Shown in pieces: positions 1 through 39,068 of a stretch of 49,932 bases of DNA (its first letter is position 1; each line of letters opens with the position of its first letter). Position numbers and translations under genes: made by a program. Below the pieces are notes generated by a model. It was not told the origin of the DNA, ran no database searches, and saw only the letters and a program-made list of their open reading frames with translations. The stretch spans positions 1 through 49,932 of the IMG/VR virus record IMGVR_UViG_3300034685_000408; one strand, given 5' to 3'. This DNA is from a virus.

Positions 1-180
1 GGCGTTCGGCCCGCTTGGTTTCTTAAATCTGATATCTTGGTATCTGATGAGGAAGAAGAAAGTGGGTGCGCATGTATTGCTTCCGAAAGGACGTTGGAGT
101 CGTACAGCACGAGAGAGCTCTTGGAAGAGCTTATCAGAAGAGAAGGATTAGAAAAACATGAGGACGAGGAAGAGGAATAG
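1..180 (+). CDS. C-terminal end of a second DGR target protein (partial)
   Basis: This frame is open from base 1 and stops at TAG 178-180, so the gene begins outside the window. Its first 16 residues (GVRPAWFLKSDILVSD) align without gaps to GVRPACNLPSSILVSD just after the variable repeat of the DGR target at 36823-38541. The DNA at 1-16 is identical to 37567-37582, and positions 34-48 are identical to 37600-37614. After this core the protein ends in a short acidic tail instead of Ig-like domains. It is therefore inferred to be a short target with its variable repeat close to the C terminus. The next gene starts inside its last codons. Only the C terminus is visible, so membership of the diversified set is likely but not proven. 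Confidence 0.75.
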   Translation, partial: GVRPAWFLKSDILVSDEEEESGCACIASERTLESYSTRELLEELIRREGLEKHEDEEEE

Positions 181-832
181 ACGAACGAGTCTTAGACTGC
201 GCTTTATCGTCCTGCTTGTTTTTTCAATGGCTGCATCGATTGCAGTTACAGCACCTAAAGAAACGGGAAATGCGGTTCTGATAACAGAAAACCCTGAGAC
301 GAAAACAGAAAAACAGCTTTATATAACAGAAACCGATGAATCCGTACCGGCATTGGAGGTAGTAGAAGCTGATGAGACAGAAAATGAAGGGTTTATCCTC
401 TACGATGTGCCGCTTGATGCAGAACTCCAGAAATACACCTACGATATTTGTACTGAAAACAACGTGGATTACAAAATGGTCCTGGCAATGATGGGACAGG
501 AAAGCAGCTACCAGGAAGATGCAATAAGCAAGACCAAAGATTACGGTATTTTGCAGATTAACCAGATTAATCATAAGTGGCTTGAAGACAAGCTCGGCAT
601 AGAAAACTTCCTGGATGCAAAACAGAACATATTGGCCGGAGTTTACATGCTGGCTGACCTAACAGATAAATACGCAGACATTGATAAAGTTTTGATGGCT
701 TACAACTGCGGAGAATCAGGTGCCCAAAAGCTTTGGGAAAAAGGAATATACAGCACAGAATACAGTCGGAAAATCCATCAGTTGATGGATGAGATGATGG
801 AGGTGGAGGGAGCAAATGAAAAGATGGATTAA
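158..832 (+). CDS. Secreted lytic transglycosylase (SLT domain)
   Basis: The 224-residue protein has a basic N terminus and a hydrophobic stretch at about residues 14-32, typical of a signal peptide or membrane anchor, then an acidic linker to about residue 85. The rest is a goose-lysozyme-like SLT domain: catalytic glutamate E115 in the GQESSYQ motif, then the YGILQIN and AYNCGE segments of the fold. The family cleaves the glycan strands of peptidoglycan. An export signal and an early-gene position, far from the holin/amidase cassette, suggest a cell-wall role other than final lysis, such as remodelling during infection. The ATG lies 23 bases before the stop of the preceding DGR-target-like gene, so the two are probably translationally coupled. 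Confidence 0.85.
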   Translation: MRTRKRNRRTSLRLRFIVLLVFSMAASIAVTAPKETGNAVLITENPETKTEKQLYITETDESVPALEVVEADETENEGFILYDVPLDAELQKYTYDICTENNVDYKMVLAMMGQESSYQEDAISKTKDYGILQINQINHKWLEDKLGIENFLDAKQNILAGVYMLADLTDKYADIDKVLMAYNCGESGAQKLWEKGIYSTEYSRKIHQLMDEMMEVEGANEKMD

Positions 833-1076
833 AAAAAACTGGCTTTACATAGCTGCGGTGCTTGCAGGAGCAATACTAACTCCTTATGCAGTACAGATGG
901 CAGCCAGGGAGAGAGGGTATAGCGGAACATTCGGAGGAGAGTTCCTCATTATTCCGTTGTTTACCCTCATAGTTCAGCTTGGGTATGGCATTAAAGATAT
1001 GTTTGATGAGTTTAAGGAGGTGAATGTAAGTAATGAGTTTGGAAGAAAGGCTCAAGCAGGCGAGGATATACGCTGA
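816..1076 (+). CDS. Small two-helix membrane protein
   Basis: The 86-residue protein has a positively charged start (MKRWIKKNW), a hydrophobic segment at about residues 9-27, a second at about 43-58, and an amphipathic acidic/basic tail. It overlaps the transglycosylase by 17 bases and has a strong GGAGG site just upstream. The pairing with a secreted wall hydrolase suggests an envelope function, possibly holin-like or an exclusion factor, but no family was recognised. Confidence 0.7.
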   Translation: MKRWIKKNWLYIAAVLAGAILTPYAVQMAARERGYSGTFGGEFLIIPLFTLIVQLGYGIKDMFDEFKEVNVSNEFGRKAQAGEDIR

Positions 1077-1293
1077 GGAAAAGCTCGGATTCAAGGTTCC
1101 GGAGGATGAATACCAAAGCATACTGGCTTATGCAGTAAGGAAATTAGGATATATCAAGAAAGATGAAGATTACCTGCCATTGTTGCTTGAGACCGAAATT
1201 ACAGACTTCTATATGAGACGCTACATCAACATGCAGTCAATGTTCATTATGACTCAAAGAGAAAATTCAGAAATGATGACGGTGAGGGGGTGA
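1033..1293 (+). CDS. Hypothetical helical protein
   Basis: An 86-residue charged protein, mostly helical by composition, with no recognisable motif. The ATG at 1033 follows AAGGAGG with good spacing and overlaps the membrane-protein gene. It belongs to the same early operon. Confidence 0.65.
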   Translation: MSLEERLKQARIYAEEKLGFKVPEDEYQSILAYAVRKLGYIKKDEDYLPLLLETEITDFYMRRYINMQSMFIMTQRENSEMMTVRG

Positions 1294-1297
1294 GAAA

Positions 1298-1531
1298 ATG
1301 TGTTCTGTATGTTTGCAAATGCCATGCCATCCAAGATGTCCAAACGCTCCGGAACCGGTGGTGGTTTATAACTGCTCGAATTGCGGAGAAGGGATTTTGG
1401 ACGGAGATGAATACGTCGAAATTGACGGCAAGTATATCTGCATGGACTGTCTCGATAACATGACAACCAAGGAATTGTTAGAAACATGCGGGTATGAAGT
1501 TGAAACGGCGGAGGTGGATTGCGGATGGTAG
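1298..1531 (+). CDS. Small zinc-ribbon protein
   Basis: A 77-residue protein with ten cysteines. The pair CSNC (about residues 26-29) and the pair CMDC (about 47-50) bracket a short beta segment (YVEIDGKYI), the usual plan of a treble-clef or zinc-ribbon fold; CSVC and CHPRC near the N terminus could bind a second metal. The fold suggests nucleic-acid or protein binding; the specific role is unknown. The stop overlaps the start of the following nuclease. Confidence 0.7.
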   Translation: MCSVCLQMPCHPRCPNAPEPVVVYNCSNCGEGILDGDEYVEIDGKYICMDCLDNMTTKELLETCGYEVETAEVDCGW

Positions 1532-2145
1532 ATGTTACGTTGCCAAAATTTCCTGAACTGACCTTTGAACCGAAGAAGCACATCTACAAGCTTAACGGCA
1601 TCTACATACCAAGCGTAACCACCGTAATGAGGCCGTTATCCAACGAATTTTACAAAGATGTCGATGAAGATATCCTCAACGCAGCGGCAGACAGGGGAAG
1701 GGCGGTGCACAACGGCATTGAAAACTATGTCAAGTTTGAAATTGAGGATATTGCTCCACAGCACAGAGGGTACTTTGACGGATTCCTTAAGTGGATGGCT
1801 GATTTAAAACCAATTCCTATAGAAACAGAATGCAGGGTTTATCACAAGTATCTTAGGTATGCAGGCACGGCTGATATGCCGTGTGTAATCGGCAAAAACC
1901 TGGTATGCGTAGACTTTAAAACGTCGGCAGAAATAAACCGGATGCTGACGGGAGTACAGCTTGAAGCATACTCCAAAGCTTATGAAAGTCATGGAGTCAA
2001 GTTTGACGAGAAGGCCATCGTACATCTGAAAAGTGATGGGACTTACTCGATGGAAAGGTATAAGGCTAACGATAGCGAAAGTTGGGAGGTTTTTGGTGCG
2101 CTCCTCACAATCTGGAACCATCAACAAAAATATAAACGGAGGTAG
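1525..2145 (+). CDS. PD-(D/E)XK family nuclease
   Basis: The 206-residue protein resembles phage members of the Cas4/AddB-like PD-(D/E)XK exonuclease superfamily. The core is GTADMP (first acidic residue), then VDFKTS (D-x-K) and VQLEAYSKAY, the conserved glutamine/tyrosine helix following the active site. Position directly upstream of a coiled-coil protein and the Bet annealing protein fits the exonuclease half of a phage two-component recombinase, which resects DNA ends for single-strand annealing. The ATG at 1525 is chosen because GAGGTGG lies 7-8 bases before it; a TTG six bases earlier is too close to that site. Confidence 0.8.
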   Translation: MVDVTLPKFPELTFEPKKHIYKLNGIYIPSVTTVMRPLSNEFYKDVDEDILNAAADRGRAVHNGIENYVKFEIEDIAPQHRGYFDGFLKWMADLKPIPIETECRVYHKYLRYAGTADMPCVIGKNLVCVDFKTSAEINRMLTGVQLEAYSKAYESHGVKFDEKAIVHLKSDGTYSMERYKANDSESWEVFGALLTIWNHQQKYKRR

Positions 2146-2150
2146 AAATT

Positions 2151-2870
2151 ATGAGTATTTCAACAGTAAAAGAAGAAGTCGTGGCAGTACTTCCCACGAC
2201 GGTAACACCAGACGAAAAGAAAATATCGAAAGAGGTAACGGCAATCGAATTCCAGGCAGAATCTATCATTATTCAGGATGAGGCAGATTACCAGCAAGCT
2301 GCTGAGTTTGGGAGGACTATAAAGCAGAAAGCGGCTGAGGTAGTCGAGTTCTTTAAGCCAATGAAAGATTCGGCATACAAGGCTCACAAGGAAATATGTG
2401 ACAGGGAAAAGATGATGCTGACACCTCTCAAGAATGCAGAGAACATCCTCAAGAAAACGATGAGTGCATATGCGCTGGAACAAGAAAGAAAGCGTAAAGC
2501 CCTGGAAGAGGAAATGCGTAGAAAGGCGGAAGAAGAGGCCAACAGGAAAATTGAAGAGGCAATAGCCCTTGAGGAGCAAGGAAAAATCGAAGAAGCAGAA
2601 GCTGCTATGCTCGATGCCCAGATAACAGACTCGGTTGCAAGAGGAGCAACCCTGGTAGTTGAAAAACCGAAGGCGGAAGGAGTTTCCGTAAGTAAGGACT
2701 GGGAAATTGTATCGATTAACGATGCGATAGTTCCCCTCAAGGTAGCAGGAGTAACCATAAGGCCGGTTGACGAGAAAGCAGTCATGAGACTCATCAGAGC
2801 GTCAAAAGGCACGGTCAGCATCCCTGGGGTAGTCTACAAAGAAACTGCAAAAATGAGTTTTAGGAGGTAG
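2151..2870 (+). CDS. Coiled-coil protein of the recombination cluster
   Basis: The 239-residue protein has a central charged coiled coil (about residues 95-150, rich in E, K, R and A) between a helical N-terminal region and a small alpha/beta C-terminal domain. It lies between the nuclease and Bet with gaps of 5 bases on each side. Proteins of this architecture commonly sit next to RecT/Bet genes in phages of Gram-positive bacteria, so a recombination or replication accessory role is inferred. No catalytic motif is visible. Confidence 0.7.
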   Translation: MSISTVKEEVVAVLPTTVTPDEKKISKEVTAIEFQAESIIIQDEADYQQAAEFGRTIKQKAAEVVEFFKPMKDSAYKAHKEICDREKMMLTPLKNAENILKKTMSAYALEQERKRKALEEEMRRKAEEEANRKIEEAIALEEQGKIEEAEAAMLDAQITDSVARGATLVVEKPKAEGVSVSKDWEIVSINDAIVPLKVAGVTIRPVDEKAVMRLIRASKGTVSIPGVVYKETAKMSFRR

Positions 2871-2875
2871 TTCAT

Positions 2876-3709
2876 ATGTCCAATAGTTTGATGGTCAAAT
2901 ATGACACAGCTTTTGGAGCCGTTGAAATTACAGCGGAAGATGTAAAGAAGTACCTGGTAAGAGGCGGAGGGAATATCACAGACCAGGAAATCAAACTCTT
3001 CCTGGAATTGTGCAAGTACCAGAAGCTCAACCCGTTTGTTGGTGAGTGCTATCCTATCAAGTTCGGAAATGACTTCCAGCTTGTAGTCGGATACGAAACC
3101 TACAAGAGAAGAGCGGAAGAAAACCCGACATATGCCGGAAGAAAATCCGGAATAGTTGTTCTTCGTGGAGACCAGGTAGTGCAGAAAGAGGGTACATGCC
3201 TCTATCCAAAAGAGGAGCTTATCGGCGGGTGGTGCAGAGTATTCCGCAAAAAGAATGGCGAGATTGAAGAGACTTACAAGGAAGTCAGCCTGAAAGAATA
3301 CGATAAAGGCCAAGCCAACTGGAAAACAAAACCTTGCACAATGATTGAAAAGGTTGCGGTTTCCCAGGCACTGAGAGCAGCTTTCCCTCGTGATTACGAA
3401 GGACTTTACACGGTAGAGGAAGCGGGTCCGGAAGGATATGTAGATGCTGACTATCATGTGGTTGAAGAAGACGAACCAATTACGCAGGAACAAAGGCAGC
3501 AAATGTTCGCACTTGCTCAAGCGAATTTTGGAAAAAAGAAAGGCAATGAGCTAATAGCTTCACTGATAGCGGAAGAAGGTTTCCAGTCCACGACAGGAAT
3601 GCCGACATCGGTTTACAAGAGAGTGATGGAAAAAATCCAGGAAGCCATCGACAAAGCGAAGTCCGGAGATGCGTCCCCAAATGATGAGGACAAAGGCAAT
3701 GAATCCTAA
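2876..3709 (+). CDS. bet: Phage recombination protein Bet (single-strand annealing protein)
   Basis: The 277-residue protein matches the lambda Red-beta family. The conserved core runs from about residue 35 (DQEIKLFLELCKYQKLNPF) through VGYETYKRRAEENP to the segment near residues 160-172 that ends in QALRAAFP. These proteins form rings or filaments on single-stranded DNA and anneal complementary strands at resected ends. The C-terminal third is divergent and contains the peptide VDADYHVVEED at 189-199, which recurs in the interrupted gene at 6029-6673. The ATG is preceded by TTTTAGGAGG. The upstream PD-(D/E)XK protein is the likely exonuclease partner. Confidence 0.92.
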   Translation: MSNSLMVKYDTAFGAVEITAEDVKKYLVRGGGNITDQEIKLFLELCKYQKLNPFVGECYPIKFGNDFQLVVGYETYKRRAEENPTYAGRKSGIVVLRGDQVVQKEGTCLYPKEELIGGWCRVFRKKNGEIEETYKEVSLKEYDKGQANWKTKPCTMIEKVAVSQALRAAFPRDYEGLYTVEEAGPEGYVDADYHVVEEDEPITQEQRQQMFALAQANFGKKKGNELIASLIAEEGFQSTTGMPTSVYKRVMEKIQEAIDKAKSGDASPNDEDKGNES

Positions 3710-3718
3710 TAATGAAAC

Positions 3719-3749
3719 AAGCAGGGGGACTCTGCAAAGCCCCCTGCTT
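3719..3749 (+). terminator. GC-rich hairpin between bet and replication genes
   Basis: A perfect 10-bp stem, with AAGCAGGGGG at 3719-3728 pairing with CCCCCTGCTT at 3740-3749 around an 11-base loop. No U-run follows, so it may be an attenuator, an RNA-processing or stability element, or a weak terminator, rather than a classic intrinsic terminator. Confidence 0.55.
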
Positions 3750-3769
3750 CATAAAGGAAGGTGAGATGA

Positions 3770-4561
3770 TTGGCATGGATAAGCGTTCATGACCATGTAG
3801 TGGGCGGAAAGCTGAGAGAGTTATCCAAACAGATAGGATGCTCACAGAAAGAAGCCCTCGGTATTCTCATCTCGCTTTGGCTGTGGGGGATTAACAATGC
3901 GGACAAAAGCGGTGAGATAAAAAGTGCAGATAGAGAGGATGTGGCGGATGCTCTATCGACAGGTTTAAGCATTGGGTTGGACCCGATGCACATAGTTAAT
4001 AGCCTCATCGCAACAAGATGGCTTGACGAAGTAGATGGAACCTTATACCTGCACGATTGGGACCAATGGCAGGAACAGTGGTTTAAGTTTCTCTCTCAAA
4101 AAGAATACGATGCCAGACGCAAGAGAGAAGAAAGAGCGAGAAAAAGGCAAGAAGAAAAGCAAAAACTTGAACGGGCATCGGACAATCCATCGGACAGTCC
4201 GCCGGACAGTCCACCGGACAATGCGAGAAAGGAAGAAAATCCGCCAGAAAAACCTAAGAAAGCAAAAGTTGAAAAAACAAAGTATGCAGACTACGTAAGC
4301 ATGAAGCCGGAAGAGTATCAAAAATTAGTTGATGCATACGGAGAGCCATTTACCAAAGCCTGCATCCAGAAGCTTGATTTTTATAAAGGCTCGAAAGGGA
4401 AGACCTACAAGGATGATTACCGAGCTATTCTTTCCTGGGTGGTAGACGAAATCAAAAAGACGAACCCTGGACTTATTCAGCAGGCAAGCAAACCGGAAAC
4501 TCAGAACGGAGGGAATCCGTTCGCAAAATACAAGAGAGGAGGCGATAACGATGGAAGTTAG
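3770..4561 (+). CDS. Replisome organizer / replication initiation protein
   Basis: The 263-residue protein starts with a winged-helix-like domain (WISVHDHVVGGKLRELSKQ, about residues 3-100). This is the organisation of phage replisome-organizer N-terminal domains in Gram-positive phages. A charged linker with PSDSPPDSPPDN repeats follows, then a DnaD-like C-terminal helical region (EEYQKLVDAYG ... YKDDYRAILSWV). It directly precedes the DnaC loader, the usual partner. The TTG start is chosen because GGAAGGTGAG lies at proper distance and no ATG is in frame nearby. It probably binds an origin, although no iteron array was found here. Confidence 0.75.
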   Translation: MAWISVHDHVVGGKLRELSKQIGCSQKEALGILISLWLWGINNADKSGEIKSADREDVADALSTGLSIGLDPMHIVNSLIATRWLDEVDGTLYLHDWDQWQEQWFKFLSQKEYDARRKREERARKRQEEKQKLERASDNPSDSPPDSPPDNARKEENPPEKPKKAKVEKTKYADYVSMKPEEYQKLVDAYGEPFTKACIQKLDFYKGSKGKTYKDDYRAILSWVVDEIKKTNPGLIQQASKPETQNGGNPFAKYKRGGDNDGS

Positions 4562-5420
4562 TTACATACTGGGGTCTGTTATAGGAAAGGCGTGCGAAAA
4601 CCAGCCCAAACGTGATGATGACTATATCGGTAAAGATGGCCTCCTTTATTGTGGAAAGTGCAGGACTCGTAAACAATCGATTCTATCACTGCCAGATAAC
4701 CCTTCAAAGACATACAAAGTGCCTGTTATGTGCAAATGCCGAGAGGAAGAGTACAGAAGAGAACAGGAGGAAATGAGAAAGCGGGAGGAGATGGAACGGG
4801 TTGCACGGCTTAAAGGCAATAGTCTTATGGATGAGAAATTCAGAAGCACCACCTTTGATACGTTTGAAGTTATAAAAGAAAACGCCAAGCTTTATAAGAT
4901 GTGCTTAAGGTATGCAGAGCACTTTGATGAGATGATGGAGAAGAATCAAGGGTTGCTCCTTTACGGGCCTGTAGGAACGGGGAAAAGCTTTGCTGCTGCT
5001 TGCATAGCAAATTATCTGCTCGACCGGATGGTTCCTGTGGTAATGACATCGTTTGTGAAAATACTGCAAAGCGTTCAGTTTTTTTCAGGAGAAGACGCAG
5101 AACAGAAATTTATAAACCGGATGAATGAAGCAAAGCTGCTCATCATTGACGACCTCGGAGCCGAACGAAACACAGATTTTGCCCTGGAAAAAGTTTATAA
5201 CATCATCGACAGTCGTTACAGGGCAAGAAAGCCTCTCATTCTTACCACGAATCTTTCCCTTATGCAGATGCAGGAAACTGCGGATATACGGTACTCAAGA
5301 ATCTACGACAGGATATTTGAAATGTGCTATCCGGTTGAGTTTAACGGTCCTTCCTGGAGGAAGGAAGAAGCGGCCAAAAGGTATGATGAGATGACTAAGT
5401 TTTTGGAGGGAGAGGCGTGA
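4551..5420 (+). CDS. dnaC: DnaC-like AAA+ helicase loader
   Basis: The 289-residue protein carries Walker A GPVGTGKS (139-146), Walker B LLIID-D (ending at D200-D201) and a sensor segment LILTTN. A cysteine-rich N terminus (CGKC at 34-37, CKC at 61-63) probably binds zinc, and a charged helix at about 64-90 leads into the ATPase. The family loads the replicative helicase onto origin DNA. The start overlaps the replisome organizer by 11 bases, supporting co-expression of the initiation pair. Confidence 0.9.
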   Translation: MEVSYILGSVIGKACENQPKRDDDYIGKDGLLYCGKCRTRKQSILSLPDNPSKTYKVPVMCKCREEEYRREQEEMRKREEMERVARLKGNSLMDEKFRSTTFDTFEVIKENAKLYKMCLRYAEHFDEMMEKNQGLLLYGPVGTGKSFAAACIANYLLDRMVPVVMTSFVKILQSVQFFSGEDAEQKFINRMNEAKLLIIDDLGAERNTDFALEKVYNIIDSRYRARKPLILTTNLSLMQMQETADIRYSRIYDRIFEMCYPVEFNGPSWRKEEAAKRYDEMTKFLEGEA

Positions 5421-5593
5421 AGATAAAGATATTTATGGAAGCAGACAGGTTGACGGTAGCGGCAATCCTTGTGAAAAACGGTTATACCGTACGGCAAGGC
5501 AAAGAAAAGAGGACCAGAACGGGTAAGAGTTATGATTACTACCTTGAAACACTGGATGATGAAAACGCAGGAAGGGAGGATGATAAAGAGTGA
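5417..5593 (+). CDS. Small hypothetical protein
   Basis: A 58-residue protein (MKIKIFMEADRLTVAAILVK...) starting at a GTG that overlaps the dnaC stop; its TGA stop overlaps the rusA GTG start in the same way. The double four-base overlaps and GGGAGAGG upstream support expression. No family was recognised; an alternating beta/helix pattern suggests a small compact fold. Confidence 0.6.
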   Translation: MKIKIFMEADRLTVAAILVKNGYTVRQGKEKRTRTGKSYDYYLETLDDENAGREDDKE

Positions 5594-6015
5594 AGGTAAG
5601 ATTTACGGTCCTGGGTGAACCGCAGGGGAAAGGGAGGCCGAAGTTCAGCAAGCGGGGAGACTTTGTAGTCACCAGGACACCGGACGAAACAGTTATTTAC
5701 GAGAATCTTATTCAGACGGAATTTTTAAGACAGTGCGGAAATGTGAGATTCAACGATAATGACTATCTTGATATGAGAATTATGGCCTATTATTCGATAC
5801 CTTCCAGTGCAAGCAAAAAGAAGCGTCGGATGATGATTGAAAAAGAGATAAGACCGACCAAAAAGCCGGATGCGGACAACATCATCAAGGTAGTAGCGGA
5901 TAGCCTCAACCAGGTAGCATACAGGGATGACTCGCAGATAGTGGACACGATGCTAAGAAAGTATTACTCAGAACAACCAAGAATTGAAGTGGTTATTCAG
6001 ACTACGAAAGAATAA
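5590..6015 (+). CDS. rusA: RusA-family Holliday junction resolvase
   Basis: The 141-residue protein has the usual RusA length and motifs: PQGKGRP near the N terminus, KKPDADN (D94, D96) with D104, and DDSQI (D113-D114), which supply the acidic metal-binding residues. RusA resolvases cut branched DNA and are a common phage counterpart to Bet/RecT recombination, clearing junctions before packaging. The GTG start overlaps the upstream stop. Confidence 0.9.
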   Translation: MKVRFTVLGEPQGKGRPKFSKRGDFVVTRTPDETVIYENLIQTEFLRQCGNVRFNDNDYLDMRIMAYYSIPSSASKKKRRMMIEKEIRPTKKPDADNIIKVVADSLNQVAYRDDSQIVDTMLRKYYSEQPRIEVVIQTTKE

Positions 6016-6028
6016 GGAGGATTATACT

Positions 6029-6382
6029 ATGAATCAGCAAAACGTATGGGCTTTAACGCTCAGTAGCGACACGTTCAATGCACTCAAGTCAGATTTCGAC
6101 CAGGTATTAAGGAAGACTCTTACCAATATGGAAAACAAAGAGAGTGAACAGGCAGAGCTTACAGTTAAACTGAAAATCTCTCTCATGAAAGAACAAGCTC
6201 CAAACTTCGATTCATTAATCCCAGGTGCACAGAGAGAAGTAATCAAACCTAAGTTTGACCACAAAGTAAGCTCGGTAATGCAGATTAAAGACGAGAAAAC
6301 GGGAACCTTAAGCGGCAATTATGAGTTAGTTTGGGACGGAGAACTCGGACAATACGTAATGAGGGAGATAAAAGACCCTTAG
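6029..6382 (+). CDS. Hypothetical protein ending at an in-frame amber codon
   Basis: The 117-residue protein starts at ATG 6029 behind AAGGAGG. The first half is helical; the second half resembles a beta domain (KPKFDHKVSSVMQIKD ... YELVWDGELGQYVMREIKDP). The frame stops at TAG 6380-6382 but stays open for another 96 codons to 6673, and no independent start with a ribosome site is visible there. If the TAG were CAG, the junction would read DPQLSIFEYD, where QLSIF resembles the bacterial beta-clamp-binding motif. Either a point mutation truncated the protein or the stop is read through at some rate. Confidence 0.75.
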   Translation: MNQQNVWALTLSSDTFNALKSDFDQVLRKTLTNMENKESEQAELTVKLKISLMKEQAPNFDSLIPGAQREVIKPKFDHKVSSVMQIKDEKTGTLSGNYELVWDGELGQYVMREIKDP

Positions 6383-6673
6383 CTTAGCATCTTTGAATAT
6401 GACAAAGAGGTTTATGATGAGGATGCTCTTAAAGGCAGGAAAGTCTTAAGCATTACTGGCTCAACAGAAGAATTTGTAGACGCAGATTACAGAATAGTGG
6501 ATGAGGATATGGAAGAAGACGAAGATGACAGCAATGATACTGAGGACGAAAACTTGCCTGACGATGAGCTGGAAGATGACGAAACGGAAAACGTTCAGGA
6601 TACGGACGAAGATTTTTACGACGGATACCAGTACGATAGTCCGGAGGAGGAAGCCAATGGAACTGCTATTTAA
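6383..6673 (+). pseudogene. In-frame acidic continuation after the amber codon
   Basis: This stretch continues the frame of the preceding gene from LSIFEYDKEVYDEDALKG to TAA 6671-6673. It contains VDADYRIVDED (nucleotides 6476-6508), nearly identical to VDADYHVVEED of Bet, then a strongly acidic tail rich in D and E. The ribosome site for the next gene (GGAGGAGG before 6657) lies inside its end. It is read as the disconnected C terminus of the 6029 gene, translated only by readthrough, or else decaying. Confidence 0.6.
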
Positions 6674-7010
6674 GGCTGTACAAGCAGAAATAGATAGGGA
6701 ACTGCAAAGGGCGGAAGTTAAGTTTGGACCTAAGAACAATTCCCCTCATGAATCCTATGCAGTAATCAAAGTAGAGCTTGAAGAAGCAATGGATGATGCA
6801 GTTGAAGCTGCTGCACATCTTGAGGAGTATTGGGATGCAGTGAAAGCAGACGACAGAGATGAGCAGAACAATATCCTTTTTGACCTTAAAAGAATAGCTA
6901 CACTGGCAGCCTGCGAAATGATACAGGTAGCAGCTATGGCTCAAAAGGCTCTCAACGGATACGAAAGGCAAAAAGACTACGCTGCTACGGGTACGGAGAC
7001 TGGGAGGTGA
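6657..7010 (+). CDS. Helical hypothetical protein, MazG-like
   Basis: A 117-residue, almost entirely helical protein. The ATG at 6657 follows GGAGGAGG; the longer open frame upstream is a shadow of the acidic tail in another frame. A first helix with EVKFGP, then KVELEEAMDDAVEAAAHLEEYW and a helix ending in QVAAMAQKAL, recalls MazG-type nucleotide pyrophosphohydrolases with their clustered E/D residues, but the complete ExxE...ExxD signature is not clear. The family assignment is tentative. Confidence 0.65.
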   Translation: MELLFKAVQAEIDRELQRAEVKFGPKNNSPHESYAVIKVELEEAMDDAVEAAAHLEEYWDAVKADDRDEQNNILFDLKRIATLAACEMIQVAAMAQKALNGYERQKDYAATGTETGR

Positions 7011-7014
7011 GAGG

Positions 7015-7080
7015 ATGAACGAAACAAAGATTGAATGGTACGATATAAGTTGGAATCCGGTAAAAGCTGTCTGCTGGTAA
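7015..7080 (+). pseudogene. Remnant of a DUF5131 (phage Gp37/Gp68) gene
   Basis: A 21-codon frame reads MNETKIEWYDISWNPVKAVC-W and ends in TAA. The segment KIEW-D--WNPV is the characteristic N terminus of DUF5131 (Gp37/Gp68) proteins, which normally continue for about 200 more residues with a cysteine cluster. Here everything after about residue 16 is lost. The ribosome site (GGGAGGTGAGAGG) is intact, so a short peptide may still be made. It is best read as a deletion scar. Confidence 0.6.
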
Positions 7081-7098
7081 AAGGAGGGGATGTGGGAA

Positions 7099-7542: not shown

Positions 7543-7553
7543 GGGGGATAGAT

Positions 7554-8114: not shown

Positions 8115-8117
8115 GCC

Positions 8118-8405: not shown

Positions 8406-8463
8406 CAAATATAAAGAAGCAGTAGATTATTTTTTTAGACAAGACTTACCGATTCGTAAGTAA
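8383..8463 (+). CDS. Very small hypothetical protein
   Basis: A 26-residue frame (MADIMDHSKYKEAVDYFFRQ...) with a good ribosome site (GCGGAGGGAG) upstream. It overlaps the zinc-finger gene and its last codons contain one of the seven (A/C)TTAC-N6-GTAAG palindromes. The coding assignment rests only on the ribosome site and spacing. Confidence 0.4.
   Translation: MADIMDHSKYKEAVDYFFRQDLPIRK
8445..8460. promoter_or_regulatory. Operator-like palindrome, copy 1
   Basis: CTTACCGATTCGTAAG matches the consensus (A/C)TTAC-N6-GTAAG seen at six other places in the window. It sits just before the HNH-like gene at 8478. No convincing promoter boxes accompany it, unlike the other copies. Confidence 0.5.
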
Positions 8464-8477
8464 GAAGGTGAAGAGGA

Positions 8478-32214: not shown

Positions 32215-33694
32215 TTATGGAGTTACTCCGGATGGTTTTGTTTTGAAAAGACTTGATACCATTATGGATACCATCTATGGAAAGCTTAAAGACGGATGGG
32301 GATTTGACCCTACTATTAATCCGCAGTCTCTTCTAAACGTTCTTGTAACATCTTTTGCCGACGAAATTGCTTCATTGTGGGAAGTTGGACAGGATGTATA
32401 CTACTCACAGTATCCATCGTCTGCTGAGGGCCTGAGTCTTGACAATGCTATGCAGTTTGGCGGAGTCACAAGATTAAAAAAGGCAAGGACGATATACTCG
32501 TTAAAATGTACCGGCGCAGACGGAACAAACATCTTGTACGGAAGCCTTGTTAAATCAACTACCCAACCGGCTAAGATGTTCCAATGTTCACGACTTCAAA
32601 CTATAAGTCGAAGCAATTTCAGAAGAATAAGGATTCGTCCTGTTGTGGGCGAAGGTACGATTGCAGAGCTTTATACCATTGCCATCAATAACGGAACATA
32701 TTCTTACGAGGCGCAAGAAGGGGATAATGAAGAAACGATTCTTAATGCCTTAAGCAATGCCATTACGGACACGGATTTTACAAAAACAGTTGCCGAAAGA
32801 GAGATAGAAGGAGTAACGCACTTTGAATTGACGATAGAGCACATTGGAGGGCAATCCTCGAACGTAATGGTTTTGTCCGATAACTTAATTGTTACGGAAT
32901 GCACATCCAACATCGTTTTTGAAAGCGTTGATTATGGTGAGGTAATTGTTCCCAACAACACCATAACGGAAATAGTTACAGTCATCAATGGCTTTTACTC
33001 CGTTACAAACGACATTGCTCCGGTCCGTGGTAGACTTACCGAAACAGATGTTGAAGCGAGACAGTCTTACATCAAAAGAATTGCTGTAAGGTCCAAGAAC
33101 ATGCTTGAGAGCATTACATCCGCCTTGTATGACAGCGTACAGGGAGTTACCGCAGCTATGGGTTACGAAAATTGCACAAGCACAACAGATTCAGAAGGAA
33201 GACCTCCTCACAGCATAGAGATTGTGGTTGATGGCGGAGATGATGGCGAAGTAGCCCAAGTAATCTTTAGCGAGAAAGCTAATGGAATCCAAACTTACGG
33301 CAGTACAACTATGGATGTAGCTGACGAGTTCGGGAATATACACAATATTAGTTTCAGCAGGCCAACATACAGATACGTCTGGATGAAAGTATCGCTCACA
33401 AGAAATACTGCGGAGGCAATTCCGCCGAATTACGCAGCAAGAACAAAATTAGCCATCATTGAAGACGGAAAGAATTTGAACGTAGGCCAAACCGTATTCT
33501 TGCAAAAGTTCCTTACGAACATTTACAAAAATGTCACCGGAGTTTCCTATATTTCCATTACCGCATGTACGACGGAGATTGAGTCACAGATTCCATCAGC
33601 TGAGGACTACACTTCTGACAATATAGTAATTGGGCAAAGGGAAAAGGCGGTGTTTGATGCAGCAAGAATCGAGGTGAATCTCGGTGGCAATTAA
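32207..33694 (+). CDS. Baseplate J protein (gp47-like)
   Basis: The 495-residue protein has the baseplate-J plan: an N-terminal helical region (GFVLKRLDTIMDTIYGKL), a central jelly-roll-like domain and a C-terminal core with VKSTTQPAKM, RGRLTETDVEARQSYIKR and GVTAAMGYENC. It forms the wedge of the baseplate. Overlaps the previous gene by 8 bases and the next by 11. Confidence 0.9.
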   Translation: MPDYGVTPDGFVLKRLDTIMDTIYGKLKDGWGFDPTINPQSLLNVLVTSFADEIASLWEVGQDVYYSQYPSSAEGLSLDNAMQFGGVTRLKKARTIYSLKCTGADGTNILYGSLVKSTTQPAKMFQCSRLQTISRSNFRRIRIRPVVGEGTIAELYTIAINNGTYSYEAQEGDNEETILNALSNAITDTDFTKTVAEREIEGVTHFELTIEHIGGQSSNVMVLSDNLIVTECTSNIVFESVDYGEVIVPNNTITEIVTVINGFYSVTNDIAPVRGRLTETDVEARQSYIKRIAVRSKNMLESITSALYDSVQGVTAAMGYENCTSTTDSEGRPPHSIEIVVDGGDDGEVAQVIFSEKANGIQTYGSTTMDVADEFGNIHNISFSRPTYRYVWMKVSLTRNTAEAIPPNYAARTKLAIIEDGKNLNVGQTVFLQKFLTNIYKNVTGVSYISITACTTEIESQIPSAEDYTSDNIVIGQREKAVFDAARIEVNLGGN

Positions 33695-34298
33695 AGATGA
33701 TTGGCTTAGCTGTATACCTCAGCAATTCCAAGACAAACGCAAACTTGAAGTACTTATCGGTGCTTTTTCCGATGAGCTACAGGAAGTTCATGACATGTTT
33801 GAACAGCTAAAAACGATGAGAGGACTTGATACTGCGACCGGACAACAACTCGACAATATAGGGGATATTGTTGTTTTAAGCAGAGCTCAGTCGGCCCTTT
33901 ATGCCGGAGTGCTCGACTTCGATGTAATCGACGATGAAAGGTATCGTTTATTCCTCAAATACAAAGCACTAAGAAACGCAAATCTTTGCACCTTTTCAGA
34001 GCTTGTTGCAGCATGTCGTCTTCTCTATAATTCGGAGATTGTATACTATAGGGAAGATAAAAACTATCCCGCAACATTCTTTCTAAATATCGGTGCAAAG
34101 TTTAGCAACGAAATACTCGGCTTGCTTCAAAGTTCCGATTTAACGATAAGACCTGCTGGAGTAACTGCAAATATAAGCTACTTCAATATGGAGTTTTTCG
34201 GTTTTTCTGACATGAACAGACTTGCACTTGGGTTCGGACAAGGGCCGTTTGCACAGTCTATTATCCAAGAACCACAAGAACCGGGAGGGGAGGTATAA
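33684..34298 (+). CDS. DUF2612-like tail protein (gpI position)
   Basis: The 204-residue protein (LEVLIGAFSDELQEVHDMFEQL, LDTATGQQLDNIGDIV, FRLFLK-like segment DERYRLFLKYK) has the layout of DUF2612/gpI proteins that connect wedge and fibre. GTG start overlaps baseplate J. Confidence 0.8.
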   Translation: MAIKDDWLSCIPQQFQDKRKLEVLIGAFSDELQEVHDMFEQLKTMRGLDTATGQQLDNIGDIVVLSRAQSALYAGVLDFDVIDDERYRLFLKYKALRNANLCTFSELVAACRLLYNSEIVYYREDKNYPATFFLNIGAKFSNEILGLLQSSDLTIRPAGVTANISYFNMEFFGFSDMNRLALGFGQGPFAQSIIQEPQEPGGEV

Positions 34299-34303
34299 GA
34301 TTT

Positions 34304-34885
34304 ATGGACCCTAATTTCAATATCACTTTTGCAGAGAATGGAAGCAGAGCGGCAATCTCAGATGAAGAGTGGGCCGGAGGTTGGGCGGCCATAGTTGGAG
34401 GTATTAACGGGATACCTACAGCACAGCAGTTTAATACTTTTGGCTATCTGATGGAGCAAAAAAGCAATATAGCAAAAGGGATAGCCGATAATTCCTGGAA
34501 TGCTTCTCAGTTAGCTGTCACGACCGCAAACCAGGCTACTTCAATCGCCAACACTGCTAATGCCAATGCCGACGATGCGAAGGCACAGGTTGTAAACGCT
34601 GTTGCTGCGGCAGCCCTTGCACAAAGTATGGCAAACTCGGCAAGCGATTCGGCAGCCCAAGCACAATCAAGTGCAGATGCAGCTTATTCATACGCAGAAG
34701 CAAACTATCAGCTTATACTGGCACTACAAAATTTGATAACGAACCATGAAGCTCGAATCAAAACTCTCGAAGATGCTCTCTTTAACGATATTATAGGAAA
34801 TCCCTTCACCATTCTATTTGATGACCTGAACGATGTTACGGTTACTGGCGTCTGGAATGTAGCGTTGCAGCGGATTGAATGTTAA
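34304..34885 (+). CDS. Tail fibre / adaptor with coiled-coil stalk
   Basis: The 193-residue protein has a small N-terminal domain (DEEWAGGWAAIVGGINGIPTAQQFN) and an alanine/asparagine/serine-rich helical repeat (about 75-150) typical of trimeric fibre stalks. It ends in NPFTILFDDLNDVTVTGVWN. It probably anchors the receptor-binding apparatus; the DGR target downstream would be its variable partner. Confidence 0.75.
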   Translation: MDPNFNITFAENGSRAAISDEEWAGGWAAIVGGINGIPTAQQFNTFGYLMEQKSNIAKGIADNSWNASQLAVTTANQATSIANTANANADDAKAQVVNAVAAAALAQSMANSASDSAAQAQSSADAAYSYAEANYQLILALQNLITNHEARIKTLEDALFNDIIGNPFTILFDDLNDVTVTGVWNVALQRIEC

Positions 34886-35148
34886 TGAACAGATACGCCT
34901 GCACAAAACAGGAGCTTTCATGCATACTCGGAAATCTGTTTACAGAAATTATGCCTCCATGCTGCCCGAAAGATAATGTGGTCGTTATCAAAGGGATAAC
35001 TTACAGCGGAAAGGAGGCATTATTTTTAATCCTTGATGATGGATTCGCTTATTCTGGAGACCGTGAGGACATCGAAAAAATAAGGGATAAGAGGTGCATT
35101 TATGAGAGAGCCTGCAAACAGAGAGCCTTCGGAATTGAATGTTATTAG
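34879..35148 (+). CDS. Small protein between fibre and Avd
   Basis: An 89-residue protein with seven cysteines and a short beta core (NVVVIKGITYSGKEALFLILDDG). It overlaps both the fibre stop and the Avd gene. No family recognised. ATG 34885 is an alternative start, as no strong ribosome site is seen before either. Confidence 0.6.
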   Translation: MLMNRYACTKQELSCILGNLFTEIMPPCCPKDNVVVIKGITYSGKEALFLILDDGFAYSGDREDIEKIRDKRCIYERACKQRAFGIECY

Positions 35149-35497
35149 CAAAGCAAAAGATTTGGTAAAGCATAGCTTTCTGATTACCAACGGGACCAGC
35201 AGGTATCCCAAAAAGATGAGGTTTACCCTGGTCAACCGGATACAGGATAAAGCTATGAATATATACGAATGTTTGCTTGAGGCTAACGAGCTAAACATCA
35301 AAGATCCTCAGCAGAAACCTGAGAGATTAAGTCTACAAGCAAAAGCTATAACTTATTGCAAGGAGCTTTTGTTTCTGGTAGAGCTATCCTTTGATATGCA
35401 GTATCTAAGTGCCAAGAGCTGCGAGTATTGGACGAAGAAAATACTTGATGTGAAATACATGACTTCGGCCTGGCTCAAAAAGGATAGGCAGCGATAA
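35102..35497 (+). CDS. avd: Avd, DGR accessory variability determinant
   Basis: The 131-residue protein is helical with charged, basic faces: SKAKDLVKHSFLITNGTSRYPKKMRFT, VNRIQDKAMNIYECLLEANEL and CKELLFLVELSFDM. This fits the four-helix Avd family, which forms a basic pentamer that binds the DGR reverse transcriptase and RNA. It ends 21 bases before the template repeat, in the order avd-TR-RT known from BPP-1-like DGRs. Confidence 0.85.
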   Translation: MREPANREPSELNVISKAKDLVKHSFLITNGTSRYPKKMRFTLVNRIQDKAMNIYECLLEANELNIKDPQQKPERLSLQAKAITYCKELLFLVELSFDMQYLSAKSCEYWTKKILDVKYMTSAWLKKDRQR

Positions 35498-35780
35498 ATC
35501 CTATTGGGTGCAGCTTGTAACGCTTCCAACGCCCACAACGTGCGCAACGTCAACTCCGATGGCAGCCTCAACAACAACAACGCCTACAACGGCAACAACG
35601 GCGTTCGGCCCGATTGAGAGGAAATTGAGACCGAGTAGTCTTTAAGACGAAAGCAGTAACCCTCTCTCAAGGAAGCTGCATCCATCCTTGCGGCACGAGG
35701 TAAACACATGATTGCCGATGTCGAGACGTTAACTCTCTATGAGTGAGGTCAAGACTACCAAACGGCAAGGAGGTTTTTTA
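35498..35780 (+). ncRNA. DGR template RNA region
   Basis: The 283 bases between avd and the reverse transcriptase hold no gene. They contain the template repeat (35519-35617) and a 163-base spacer with a hairpin (CAAGGA 35668-35673 with TCCTTG 35685-35690). In studied DGRs, the RNA from avd through TR and the following spacer is the structured template for cDNA synthesis. Ends of the RNA are unknown. Confidence 0.7.
35519..35617 (+). repeat. DGR template repeat (TR)
   Basis: The 99 bases align without gaps to the variable repeat at 37486-37584. All 14 differences fall on template adenines (7 A-to-T, 5 A-to-G, 2 A-to-C) and none on its other bases. The TR contains 30 adenines and is dominated by AAC codons (12 in the target frame), which can mutate widely without making stop codons. 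The last two differences (35613 and 35617) may be fixed IMH/IMH* differences, because both known variable copies have C at the first and a non-A base at the second. Confidence 0.95.
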
Positions 35781-36839
35781 ATGTATGAACAAGTTTATAA
35801 ATTTGAAAACCTTTATAATGCATTCAGGAAAACCAGGAAGGGAAAGCAATGGAAGAATACCACTGCTCGGTATGAGATTAACCTTTTAGAAGCTACAGCA
35901 CTGCTTTCCGAACAGCTACAATCGAAGACATACACAGTTTCTCCTTATACGGTTTTCTACGTTTACGAACCGAAAAAGAGAGAAGTCAAGACGAATTCTT
36001 TAAAAGATAAGGTTGTACAGGAAAGCTTGTGCACCCATGTTTTGGAACCGTTAATCGAACCGAGCTTTATTCTCGACAACTACGCATCACAGGTAGGGAA
36101 GGGAACGCATTTCGGTCTGAACAGACTTGCTGAATTCATGCGGCGATATTACAGGGAAAACGGCTTTGCAAACGGTTGGGTATTGAAATGTGATATTAAA
36201 AAGTATTTCTACAGGATTCAACATGAACCTTTGAAGCGCATGGTAAGAAAGTATATTAAAGAACCCGATGTGCTCTGGCTTGTGGATTTAATTATTGACA
36301 GCACAGAAGACCCTGGCATCCCGATAGGAAACCAAACAAGTCAGATTTTCGCATTGTTGTACCTGAATGGCATGGACCATCTTGTTAAAGATAAGCTCGG
36401 GGTTAAGTTTTATGGGAGGTATATGGACGATTTCTACCTCATCCACAAAGATAAGGATTTTCTCAGGAAATGCCTTGTGGACATTCAAAACCATGTCGGA
36501 AACCTTGGATTAGAGCTTAATGACAAAACTCAAATCTTCCCCTTGAAGAACGGCATTGATTTTCTTGGGTTTCACACCTATTTAACGGATACCGGAAAAG
36601 TAATACGTAAAGTCAGAAGAAGGAGCAAGAACAACTTTAGGCGAAAGCTCAAGAAATTCAAGGTGCTTGTAGAGAATGGAAAAATGACGCAGGACAGAGT
36701 GGAGTTGTCGTATCAAAGCTGGCGAGGTCATGTAGAGCACGGCAACTGTCACCACCTGCTCAGGAATATGGACGAACTCTACAGAAAATTATTCAATACT
36801 GAAAGGTCAGGTGATAAACCAAATGTCACAGCCAATTAG
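35781..36839 (+). CDS. DGR reverse transcriptase
   Basis: The 352-residue protein has retroelement RT motifs: CDIKKYF (D138 of the catalytic triad), PIGNQTSQ (motif 4, 181-188, the DGR hallmark), YMDD (214-217) and LGLELNDKTQ/IDFLGF with a basic C-terminal thumb. It makes error-prone cDNA from the template RNA with A-specific misincorporation, aided by Avd. The ATG follows AAGGAGG at 6-8 bases. Its last codons overlap the target gene. Confidence 0.97.
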   Translation: MYEQVYKFENLYNAFRKTRKGKQWKNTTARYEINLLEATALLSEQLQSKTYTVSPYTVFYVYEPKKREVKTNSLKDKVVQESLCTHVLEPLIEPSFILDNYASQVGKGTHFGLNRLAEFMRRYYRENGFANGWVLKCDIKKYFYRIQHEPLKRMVRKYIKEPDVLWLVDLIIDSTEDPGIPIGNQTSQIFALLYLNGMDHLVKDKLGVKFYGRYMDDFYLIHKDKDFLRKCLVDIQNHVGNLGLELNDKTQIFPLKNGIDFLGFHTYLTDTGKVIRKVRRRSKNNFRRKLKKFKVLVENGKMTQDRVELSYQSWRGHVEHGNCHHLLRNMDELYRKLFNTERSGDKPNVTAN

Positions 36840-38541
36840 CAATTTGCCTGTTGGTGCTCTTGTTAAAGACACCACGACGAAGTATTATGGTTCGCCTATA
36901 ATCTGGACGATTGCGGACAAAAACCATGCAGGCTATCCGGCTAATTCCGTTACGTTGCTATCAAAGTATATTCTCACATTGAAATGTTCGGACGCCAAGG
37001 AACCATCAAACAGCAACAGCGACCGTCAAAGCTATGGAAACAACAGATATCTATACAGTAACATAAGGCAATGGCTAAACAGTGCGGCTGCTGCTGGAGC
37101 ATGGTACACAGCTCAGCATAGTGCTGACGCTCCTCCTACAAACGCAAATGTCTGGAGTAATTACAACGAATATGATGCACAAGCAGGATTCCAAAATGAT
37201 TTCTCCGCAAACTTTAGAAACGCCCTGCTAAGCACATCCCTTACTGTTGTCAAGGCAAGCGTAGATGGAGGCGGAACAGAAACCGTTGCCGACAAGGTCT
37301 TCTTATTAAGCACTACCGAGGTTGGACTTGCGGACGAAGGTTATGCAGAAGGAAGCAAGTTGGCATTGTTTTCTGATAACGCAAGCAGGCTGGCTTATCC
37401 TACAGCTTTGTGTGTAAGCAACAGTGAGTACACCAATGCAAGCTTAAATACCAGCTCTCCTTGGTACTGGTGGCTTCGTACTCCATACGCTTCCAACGCC
37501 CGCTACGTGCGCCGCGTCAACTCCGATGGCAGCCTCTACTACAACGTCGCCTACAGCGGCGTCAACGGCGTTCGGCCCGCTTGTAATCTTCCATCTTCAA
37601 TCTTGGTATCTGATTCGCCAGATGGAGACGGAGCATACACGATTGTATGGAACCAGCCACCAACTACGCCCAGTTCTATTACAGTTCCTACGACAGTGCG
37701 TGGAGGACAGACGCTTGCAATTTCATGGGGAGCATCAACAGACCCGGATGGAAACCTTGCCGGATATAGATTGGAACGTAGCGTAAATGGCGGAGCATAC
37801 TCCCAGATTTACCAGGGGACGCAACTAAGTTATACGGATAACATTACCTACGGATGGACAACTGTACAGTACAGAGTTAAAGCATATGATACGGCAGAAG
37901 CTGAATCCGGATACCAAACAAGTCCAAGCCGAACCGTTATCAATAACACAGCACCAGTTATTTCGGGAAGTGACGGAAACCTCGGAACAAAGTCGGGAGA
38001 CTTCTCACAAACCTATACCGTTACAGATGCTGAATCAGATGCAGTAACAGTTGTAGAAAAGATAGATGGAGTTCAGCTTAGGAGCTACACTGTGACGCTG
38101 GGGGCAACCAATACATTCTCAGTTTCAGGATTAACCTTCATGAAACTGCTGAATGGCAGTCATACCTTGACTGTTACTGCAACTGATAGCGCAGGAGCAT
38201 CCTCAACAAGAACGTGGACCTTCACCAAATCAGTTACTTCATTGAGCATTGTCCTATCTGCTCCAATGGCAACGGATGCTATGGTAACGAAATGTATAAT
38301 CAATGTTACAAGAGCAATTCCTGCCGGAGCTGACTTCAAAGTTGAGGTATGCAACAATGGATTTGATGCTTCTCCTGCATGGGAAGATTGCACAAGTGCA
38401 GTACTTGGAGGACGAAAATTTTTCCTTTCAAATACCACCAAAACAGCAGCACAATGGGGCTTCAATGTAAGAGTAACCGTGTCAAGGAATGGTGCCATAG
38501 GCGATTGTTATGTATCAGGGATAGGAGGTAATTTTGAATGA
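36823..38541 (+). CDS. DGR target protein with internal variable lectin-like domain and Ig-like domains
   Basis: The 572-residue protein starts with a C-type-lectin-like (DUF6273-like) domain: NNRYLYSNIRQWLN, FLLSTTEVGL and SPWYWWLRTPYAS. The variable repeat (VR) encodes residues 222-254. It is followed by GVRPA and then an FN3-like domain (about 280-370), a second Ig-like domain (about 375-470) and a C-terminal domain. The VR is therefore internal, unlike most DGR targets, where it ends the protein. Probably a tail-tip receptor-binding protein. The ATG 36823 overlaps the RT end; GTG 36811 is possible. Confidence 0.9.
   Translation: MSQPISNLPVGALVKDTTTKYYGSPIIWTIADKNHAGYPANSVTLLSKYILTLKCSDAKEPSNSNSDRQSYGNNRYLYSNIRQWLNSAAAAGAWYTAQHSADAPPTNANVWSNYNEYDAQAGFQNDFSANFRNALLSTSLTVVKASVDGGGTETVADKVFLLSTTEVGLADEGYAEGSKLALFSDNASRLAYPTALCVSNSEYTNASLNTSSPWYWWLRTPYASNARYVRRVNSDGSLYYNVAYSGVNGVRPACNLPSSILVSDSPDGDGAYTIVWNQPPTTPSSITVPTTVRGGQTLAISWGASTDPDGNLAGYRLERSVNGGAYSQIYQGTQLSYTDNITYGWTTVQYRVKAYDTAEAESGYQTSPSRTVINNTAPVISGSDGNLGTKSGDFSQTYTVTDAESDAVTVVEKIDGVQLRSYTVTLGATNTFSVSGLTFMKLLNGSHTLTVTATDSAGASSTRTWTFTKSVTSLSIVLSAPMATDAMVTKCIINVTRAIPAGADFKVEVCNNGFDASPAWEDCTSAVLGGRKFFLSNTTKTAAQWGFNVRVTVSRNGAIGDCYVSGIGGNFE
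37486..37584 (+). repeat. DGR variable repeat (VR)
   Basis: Copy of the template repeat with 14 adenine-only differences, encoding AAC-to-TAC, AAC-to-GTC, AAC-to-CGC and similar replacements. The final part, GGCGTTCGGCCCG (37567-37579), matches the TR exactly and is inferred to belong to the initiation of mutagenic homing element. Surface tyrosines, serines and arginines dominate the varied residues, as usual in C-type-lectin ligand sites. Confidence 0.93.
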
Positions 38542-38699
38542 GCCTTAAACGTAAAGTGGACAGTATTGTAGAGCTCAAAGAAAAAAATCAAAAAATAGCT
38601 GAGCTTGAACAGCGCAACCAGGAATTAGAGCAGCAAGTCACCGATTTGCAGATTGCTCTTTGTGAGGTATATGAAACTATGATAGGAGGTGCGAACTGA
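38538..38699 (+). CDS. Small coiled-coil protein
   Basis: A 53-residue protein (MSLKRKVDSIVELKEKNQKI...) with a leucine/isoleucine heptad helix. It overlaps the target stop with ATGA and has ATAGGAGG upstream. Short coiled-coil proteins of this kind commonly follow tail-fibre genes in clostridial phages. Confidence 0.6.
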   Translation: MSLKRKVDSIVELKEKNQKIAELEQRNQELEQQVTDLQIALCEVYETMIGGAN

Positions 38700-38800
38700 T
38701 GGCAAAAATCTATGCCAATCTAATCAAGAAGGGTATCAAAACTATTGATGATGTCCCTGAAAATCTTAAAGAAGAAGTGGAGAGGTTGCTCAATGAGTAA
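38699..38800 (+). CDS. Short CD1375/XkdX-like protein A
   Basis: A 33-residue protein beginning MAKIYANLIKKGIKTIDDVP, which recalls CD1375/XkdX-like small proteins at phage tail ends. It overlaps the previous stop (TGATGG) and has GGAGG upstream. A paralogue lies 50 bases downstream. Confidence 0.6.
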   Translation: MAKIYANLIKKGIKTIDDVPENLKEEVERLLNE

Positions 38801-38849
38801 CCTTTTCTTTTTCCTCGCAAAGATGCTGCTTAGGAAGGAGGTGGAACAG

Positions 38850-38966
38850 ATGGCAGTAGTATATGCAACTCTTATTGTTAAGGGTATAAAAACCCTTGAA
38901 CAGGTTCCTGTTCTAATTAGAGACCAGGTTAAAGCAATTCTGGAGGCACTTGAAGTCGAAGCTTGA
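38850..38966 (+). CDS. Short CD1375/XkdX-like protein B
   Basis: A 38-residue protein, MAVVYATLIVKGIKTLEQVP..., clearly similar to its neighbour (shared YA-LI-KGIKT--VP). A strong AAGGAGGTGG lies 8 bases upstream. The frame stays open from ATG 38793, which overlaps the preceding stop, so a longer 57-residue form with a hydrophobic start is possible. Confidence 0.55.
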   Translation: MAVVYATLIVKGIKTLEQVPVLIRDQVKAILEALEVEA

Positions 38967-38984
38967 TGAAAGCATATGGATTAA

Positions 38985-39027
38985 GGACGTAAGTTTGCCG
39001 ACCGGCATTCTTACGTCCTATTTATTT
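38985..39027 (+). terminator. Intrinsic terminator after the tail-end genes
   Basis: GGACGTAAG (38985-38993) pairs perfectly with CTTACGTCC (39010-39018); an inner GCC/GGC pair extends the stem. TATTTATTTG follows. It separates the DGR/tail genes from the lysis cassette. Confidence 0.75.
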
Positions 39028-39068
39028 GTATTGATGTGCCTCAAACAATAAAGAAGGGAGTGAAGCAT

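Follow-up and report, generated by a model that had tools for sequence, protein, structure and literature searches.

Results

Architecture of the window DGR

The window analysed here is a complete viral record (G000), a single contig of 49,932 bases that carries a DGR with its first target among the tail genes and, at its left edge, the truncated end of a second, smaller gene (Table 1). A DGR is recognized by a reverse transcriptase (RT) gene together with a template repeat (TR) whose variable repeat (VR) differs from it at adenines, and the window holds both. The RT reading frame has no internal stops and is 43–62% identical to the RTs of phages nd4, nd12, Toutatis, Lelie and Brigit, while the TR and the first variable repeat (VR1) differ at 12 of 97 bases, all of them TR adenines and none elsewhere. 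An Avd-like reading frame adjoins the TR, which is the fitting position, and its bAvd score lies below the curated cutoff. Target1, surrounded by baseplate families, contains a DUF6273 domain (residues 45–262) followed by an Ig-like Big_13 region (residues 401–472) that scores just under the cutoff. Also beside the baseplate genes, at 31211–31843, a phage protein is encoded that weakly matches the RAMA domain, under the cutoff (E 1.2e-4).

Elsewhere, the window-type template was found only in L017, an 8.8-kb stretch from another sample that does not reach target2 and that carries the window-type cassette at 96.6% identity over 8,765 bases. Between the window and L017, VR1 differs at 16 of 28 adenine sites and at 0 of 69 others; this confinement to adenines indicates that the window DGR type probably is, or was, active.

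Table 1 Features of the window and its collinearity with the sister prophage G001.
Feature	Position	Strand	Evidence
Target2 (small DUF6273/C-type-lectin protein), 3′ end, 59 codons + stop	1..180	+	Open frame; 97.1% DNA identity to G001 from base 1
VR2, 3′ end	1..17	+	Identical to VR1 37567-37583; one template difference, at its only adenine there
Transglycosylase (SLT), hydrophobic N-terminus	158..832 (or end at 829)	+	Pfam SLT E 1.2e-20; 98% amino acid identity in G001
Avd-like accessory protein	35102..35497	+	Pfam bAvd E 6.3e-5, 23.9 bits (curated cutoff 40)
Template repeat (TR)	35520..35616	+	Pairs with VR1 and with G001 VR2
DGR reverse transcriptase	35739..36839	+	Pfam RVT_1 E 6.4e-17; no internal stops
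Target1, tentaclin-like (N-terminal DUF6273, then Ig-like region)	36811..38541	+	DUF6273 E 5e-38; 57-58% identity to nd12/nd4 target1 over nearly full length
First variable repeat (VR1)	37487..37583	+	TR pairing; allele differences to L017
Tail/DGR segment exchanged in G001	32464..39051	+	No blastn match to G001 between flanking blocks
Collinear block	1-7063		97.1%
Collinear block	7075-8765		95.9%
Collinear block	9163-18979		96.0%
Collinear block	18984-23278		97.3%
Collinear block	23279-32463		96.4%
Collinear block	39052-41471		94.6%

A truncated gene at the left edge

Because the window is the whole record, base 1 is the end of that record and not a cut made by our scan. As a sequence-only reading had proposed, the first 48 bases align without gaps to the downstream target, at 37567–37614, with 40 of 48 identities (BLAST E 2.3e-9). 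The second-best ungapped 48-mer in the entire window, on either strand, reaches 25/48, so this match is not due to chance. Perfect identity, which the same reading had placed at bases 1–16, is real and extends to 17 bases. Against the corresponding template bases (35600–35616) the single difference is A to C, and both VRs end in the GC-rich GGCGTTCGGCCCG followed by C where the template has A. The template adenine that is the last mutable one before GGCGTTCGG is two bases 5′ of base 1. Beyond the repeat, bases 18–48 are alike to their target1 counterpart at 23 of 31 positions (by subtraction). Frame 1 contains no stop from base 1 until 178–180, and its translation, which starts GVRPAWFLKSDILVSD, resembles the end of the target1 DUF6273 domain; the translation of bases 1–180 alone has no Pfam match.

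The complete target2 gene in a sister prophage

In the viral collection, the window transglycosylase has a single close relative, encoded by the prophage IMG/VR 2887281495_000001 (50,136 bases; hereafter G001), a sister of the window phage. Searches with the transglycosylase and with the exact left-edge pattern returned no relative besides G001. Since the record begins at base 1 and its own VR2 is visible for 17 bases, the leftward extension of the repeat was read from this sister.

G001 holds the full target2, a DUF6273 protein of 219 amino acids (L003:4526-5185). Its VR2 (L003:4935-5022) aligns over 88 bases with the window template (35529–35616), with 12 mismatches that fall at 12 of 26 adenine sites and at 0 of 62 other sites (hypergeometric P 4.7e-8). 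The match to the window template thus extends through the 71 bases that precede the shared end, in frame with the protein, and the differences are adenine-only (12/12) in frame with the 59 visible codons, as the sequence-only reading had predicted for this extension. As a control, the same VR2 was compared with 11 other templates, and none gave fewer than 8 non-adenine mismatches in 70 bases. Only the window template fits among those tested, which points to it as the specific source of G001 VR2. The same template fits VR1 and G001 VR2, in agreement with the earlier proposal that one reverse transcriptase serves two different proteins, one fibre-like and one beside a secreted wall hydrolase; these are the tentaclin-like target1 and target2, whose gene overlaps that of the transglycosylase. 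By this comparison, the gene cut by the left edge of the window is very probably a second target of the phage's own DGR, remote from it, with its 3′ end at bases 1–180.

The start of the record within a repeat had been taken as a possible assembly break at that repeat. G001 starts and stops exactly at gene ends, and the last base of the window belongs to the stop codon of the same gene that closes G001. Records of this type seem to be trimmed to gene boundaries, in which case the original contig of the window may have been at most two bases longer. A long exact repeat is the poorer explanation of the break, with 17–18 bases shared at this end. The longest exact matches of G001 VR2 are 22 bases to the template and 29 to VR1, both mid-repeat and not at the 3′ end; differing VR2 alleles are therefore the likelier cause. 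We infer that the record begins at base 1 owing to VR2 allele differences in the sampled population, the assembler having halted at the final variable position. Benler et al. 2021 (PMC8008677), in the available text, note that assemblies break at variable repeats.

Exchange of the tail/DGR cassette

By blastn, identity between the window and G001 is about 96% for the greater part of their length and 95.9–97.3% in the main collinear blocks. The segment absent from G001 comprises the tail tip plus the entire DGR. In its place, G001 carries a cassette with a different DGR, whose RT is 37% identical to the window RT in the aligned parts and whose own template differs from the neighbouring target by 10 adenine and 2 other mismatches in 116 bases. 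This cassette lies at L049:4354-7341, with its RT, a template at about L049:5669-5784 and a sulfatase/FGE-like target (labelled by eye) at 6277-7341. G001 has two further insertions, of about 0.7 kb near window position 7063 and 1.5 kb near 18979.

When the window template and RT region were searched against G001 at the DNA level, VR2 was the sole match. As G001 has no matching template, its VR2 reads as a repeat written by a template since lost, and activity at its target2 locus is probably over. The 62 unchanged non-adenine sites of this VR2 suggest that the exchange was recent. On the evidence of these alignments, G001 corresponds to the window phage after a swap of the tail/DGR cassette for an unrelated DGR, and VR2 appears to be the stranded record of the lost template.

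Remote second repeats in other phages

Relatives of target2 occur in phages nd4, nd12, Lelie, Toutatis and Brigit, and a profile search places them at 39 viral loci; RT genes are present in 20 of the 40 records searched. We divided target2 proteins by their C-terminal tail, which clade A has and clade B lacks, and counted every examined record that has both an RT and a clade-A target2, leaving clade B out. In all 11 such records besides the window (nd4, nd12, Toutatis, Lelie, Brigit, G002, G003, G015, G019, G024 and G037), the record's own template fits the remote VR2, and the RT and target2 lie at least 7.7 kb apart by their coordinates. Summed over these records, template and VR2 differ at 120 of 276 adenine sites and at 5 of 662 others. 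In Brigit, for example, the remote early repeat has 7 adenine mismatches and 1 other in 77 bases. When set against templates of other families, the same VR2s show 5–27 non-adenine mismatches per 70 bases; the exceptions, with 0–1, are the pairs sharing a template type (Toutatis/Lelie, Brigit/G037 and G002/G003). Counting each sharing pair once, there are nine template families including that of the window. The fit of the own template in 11 of 11 records indicates that the remote repeat follows its template through evolution. VR2 alleles also vary among near relatives: comparing L213 with L215, differences occur at 12 of 22 adenine sites, at 0 of 54 other sites of the repeat and at 0 of 572 positions in the rest of the gene.

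In clade B (L217, L219, L222 and others), most repeats lie within about 1 kb of the RT. L226 and the repeat at L223:4285 depart from this, lying several kb from the RT without a C-terminal helix, so that the helix and the remote position coincide imperfectly. The RT-less records, which were left out of the counts, were compared with the template of a relative; no match was obtained for 2 of 20, and the rest gave 0 to 9 non-adenine mismatches. L225 (G031) yielded no template/VR pair at the threshold. In G024 (L218), two DUF6273 genes stand in tandem in the early region (9110-9889 and 9983-10633), and the template matches the second only.

Broader searches added little. A TR/VR pair scan of 40 pattern-derived records and other loci, which was not exhaustive in that it missed the L049 pair, recovered only L017 apart from the window itself. 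A degenerate repeat-core pattern matched 12 stretches in viral contigs, including L013 and L017, and at least 118 in genome contigs; the latter were rejected because they lie in unrelated genomes and are evidently chance matches. For the phage host, a protein search of genome contigs gave 15 candidate stretches, none of them a relative; four Clostridia-type genomes gave 0/4, and 391 genomes of one class gave 4 at E 1e-15, with 34–40% identity.

Family and predicted fold of target2

The G001 target2 consists of a single DUF6273/C-lec domain (DUF6273 E 7e-14) with the VR near its C terminus. Its AlphaFold2 model (pLDDT 88) adopts a C-type-lectin fold with a helix at residues 197–207, a short helical tail as in the nd4/nd12 tgt2 type. 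A fold search with this model returned an IgA peptidase domain (Z 17.1), Treponema TvpA (Z 8.3) and PvdO (Z 7.6), where Z below 8 may mean a common arrangement only. The matches other than the IgA peptidase domain are C-type lectins and FGE-like folds, by which the ligand is not indicated. The peptidase domain, from Thomasclavelia ramosa (PDB 9qa6), also matches the target2 profile (E 3e-7), which suggests that a target2-like domain is used for binding elsewhere.

Among PHROG families, G001 target2 matches phrog_9958 best (E 3e-69; function class unknown), and the Hoc-like decoration family phrog_10993 matches all 21 members too, more weakly. By reading of its sequence, the G001 N terminus has no apparent signal peptide. 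A known counter-defence family was considered and rejected, as a PADLOC search of five proteins at E 0.01 gave no family and left target2 without a match. An ELLxEIxRR-like C-terminal motif, sought in all ORFs of 15 sequences, lies near the C terminus of 8 target2 proteins and 2 other ORFs; in these 15 sequences no docking motif common to target2 and other early proteins was found.

Genomic setting of target2

The transglycosylase gene starts within the end of target2. Upstream of target2, G001 encodes a large serine recombinase (named by reading its sequence) and HTH repressors, and downstream of the transglycosylase the window encodes RecT (2876–3706) and RusA (5590–6012). We then surveyed the neighbours at 19 target2 loci after dropping near-duplicates, which gave 124 ORFs of at least 60 amino acids on the target2 strand from a simple caller, so that some may be spurious. 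These ORFs match 96 PHROG families, 25 of the 96 being among the matches listed, and 24 and 14 Pfam families in the two halves of the search, such as DNA methylases, HTH, exonuclease, RecT and ERF, and further Gam, DarA_C, helicase, SLT and Band_7. Virion families are absent from the Pfam matches of these 124 ORFs.

A transglycosylase of the same family adjoins target2 in the window and G001 and lies on the opposite side of target2 in L196 and L197, an inverted order that hints at a functional link. In Toutatis-type phages, an SPFH/Band_7 membrane protein is encoded a few genes upstream of target2 (L182:9627-10538, L216:8104-9012 and L228:8095-9003). Further into the window, a complete S-adenosylmethionine synthetase gene (9460–10680) overlaps a gene for a PemK-like toxin (10677–11063); an S-adenosylmethionine synthetase is annotated in Brigit too.

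Relation to known systems

The arrangement of a tentaclin with a small remote target2 is already published for nd4, nd12 and Lelie, and the window phage is thus a further member. Like the window, nd4 and nd12 have a tentaclin beside the RT and a small, DUF6273-only second target served by one template; their RTs are 53–62% identical to that of the window, and their target2 proteins are 42% and 39% identical to that of G001. They differ from the window in their template families. In the portions available, Baykov et al. 2023 (PMC10743442) report DUF3310 in nd12 target2 and treat tgt2 as a probable Mtd-like receptor-binding protein; these portions do not discuss the early position or an exchanged cassette.

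The Faecalibacterium phages Lelie, CP11, Toutatis and Brigit resemble the window in having large and small DUF6273 targets. Lelie and CP11 are described in the accessible text of PMC11792537 as having two repeats, both varying among CP11 relatives, and the Roseburia phage Shimadzu, with two targets, is cited there as well. Lelie is reported to be inducible in Faecalibacterium. The target2 proteins of Lelie and Toutatis are 36% identical to that of G001, and the target2 of Brigit directly follows HTH genes, as in G001. For Brigit and Toutatis, Cornuault et al. 2018 (PMC5883640) give single targets in the text at hand; the remote early repeat of Brigit was found in the present analysis. In contrast to the window, Lelie, Toutatis and Brigit gave no window-type transglycosylase in the vicinity of target2.

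Four gut prophage species whose second repeat is distal (PMC12629997) and Quimbyvirus (Benler et al. 2021, PMC8008677) resemble the window in that this repeat lies outside the structural module, near methyltransferases; their authors suggest a role in host conflict. Quimbyvirus differs from the window phage in being a Bacteroides phage with its RT spread over three frames. The survey of Roux et al. 2021, as its accessible text indicates, could not detect remote targets (PMC8144416). In the literature examined, mostly papers outside subscription journals and in part seen as excerpts, we met neither a pairing of target2 with a transglycosylase nor the remote early repeat of Brigit nor a VR2 stranded after a cassette swap, the last of which is new as far as we searched.

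Discussion

Phage DGRs are mostly read as host-range devices for the particle. The second target described here would point to an additional use. From known DGR biology, the template RNA would be copied with errors at adenines, and the cDNA would overwrite two repeats, VR1 of the tentaclin gene and VR2 of the early one, with GGCGTTCGGCCCG and the C-for-A at both VR ends as a plausible initiation-of-homing mark. We give somewhat better than even chances to target2 being a non-virion C-type-lectin binder that the repressor/recombination operon expresses early or in the lysogen. Its variable face would then meet a changing ligand of the host or of a rival phage, and diversification of the particle would fall to the tentaclin.

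We favour this reading over one that makes target2 a receptor-binding protein of the virion, comparable to Mtd of BPP-1, with its early position incidental; that rival we regard as unlikely. The predicted C-type-lectin fold would suit such a protein, known phage DGR targets are mostly structural, and Baykov et al. 2023 (PMC10743442), in the part available, put this forward as a hypothesis for nd4/nd12 tgt2; an early gene position alone does not exclude a virion role. Against it stand the lack of virion families among the Pfam matches of the neighbouring ORFs, the overlap of target2 with a transglycosylase gene in an early operon, the N-terminal DUF3310 fusion in nd12 and the best match to phrog_9958, a family of unknown function, ahead of the weaker Hoc-like one. 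Published second repeats that are distal from the RT or outside the structural module lie beside counter-defence genes, as the available text of two studies describes (PMC8008677, PMC12629997).

That the window target2 is itself a relic, no longer diversified, is improbable. G001 demonstrates that a VR2 can be kept when its template is gone, but the window RT frame is free of stops, its template matches G001 VR2 exactly at non-adenine sites, and template and remote repeat are in step in 11 of 11 other records. Still less credit is due to mere homology of two DUF6273 C-termini without DGR rewriting: DUF6273 is widespread, and bases 18–48, outside the repeat, are alike and encode the same domain end in both genes, but the adenine-only pattern over 88 bases in G001 is specific to the window template. 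Misassembly of a stray repeat end onto the early region is the least credible, for although repeats break assemblies and the record starts inside one, the separate record G001 is collinear with the window across this junction, from base 1 to 7063.

Returning to the early, non-virion binder, we tentatively extend it to temperate Firmicutes phages more widely, where one DGR may diversify two arms at once. One would be the particle protein with which cells are found; the other, a cytoplasmic binder with a lectin fold, would be expressed early, be linked to a repressor/recombination/anti-restriction operon and act inside the infected or lysogenic cell against a changing partner from the host or a rival phage. 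VR2 would follow its own template across the nine families and could outlive its DGR. If this is true, with a second target kept in step with its template in an early operon across nine template families, the DGR would have a further role, before assembly or in the lysogen, that is open to testing in phages which can already be induced in the laboratory. The window and G001 provide a natural experiment, in which one phage occurs in two states, with a matching template and without. DGR surveys confined to the RT neighbourhood, or to records broken at variable repeats, miss remote targets of this kind, and a VR2 that outlives its DGR after a tail-cassette swap may keep a readable record of the lost template.
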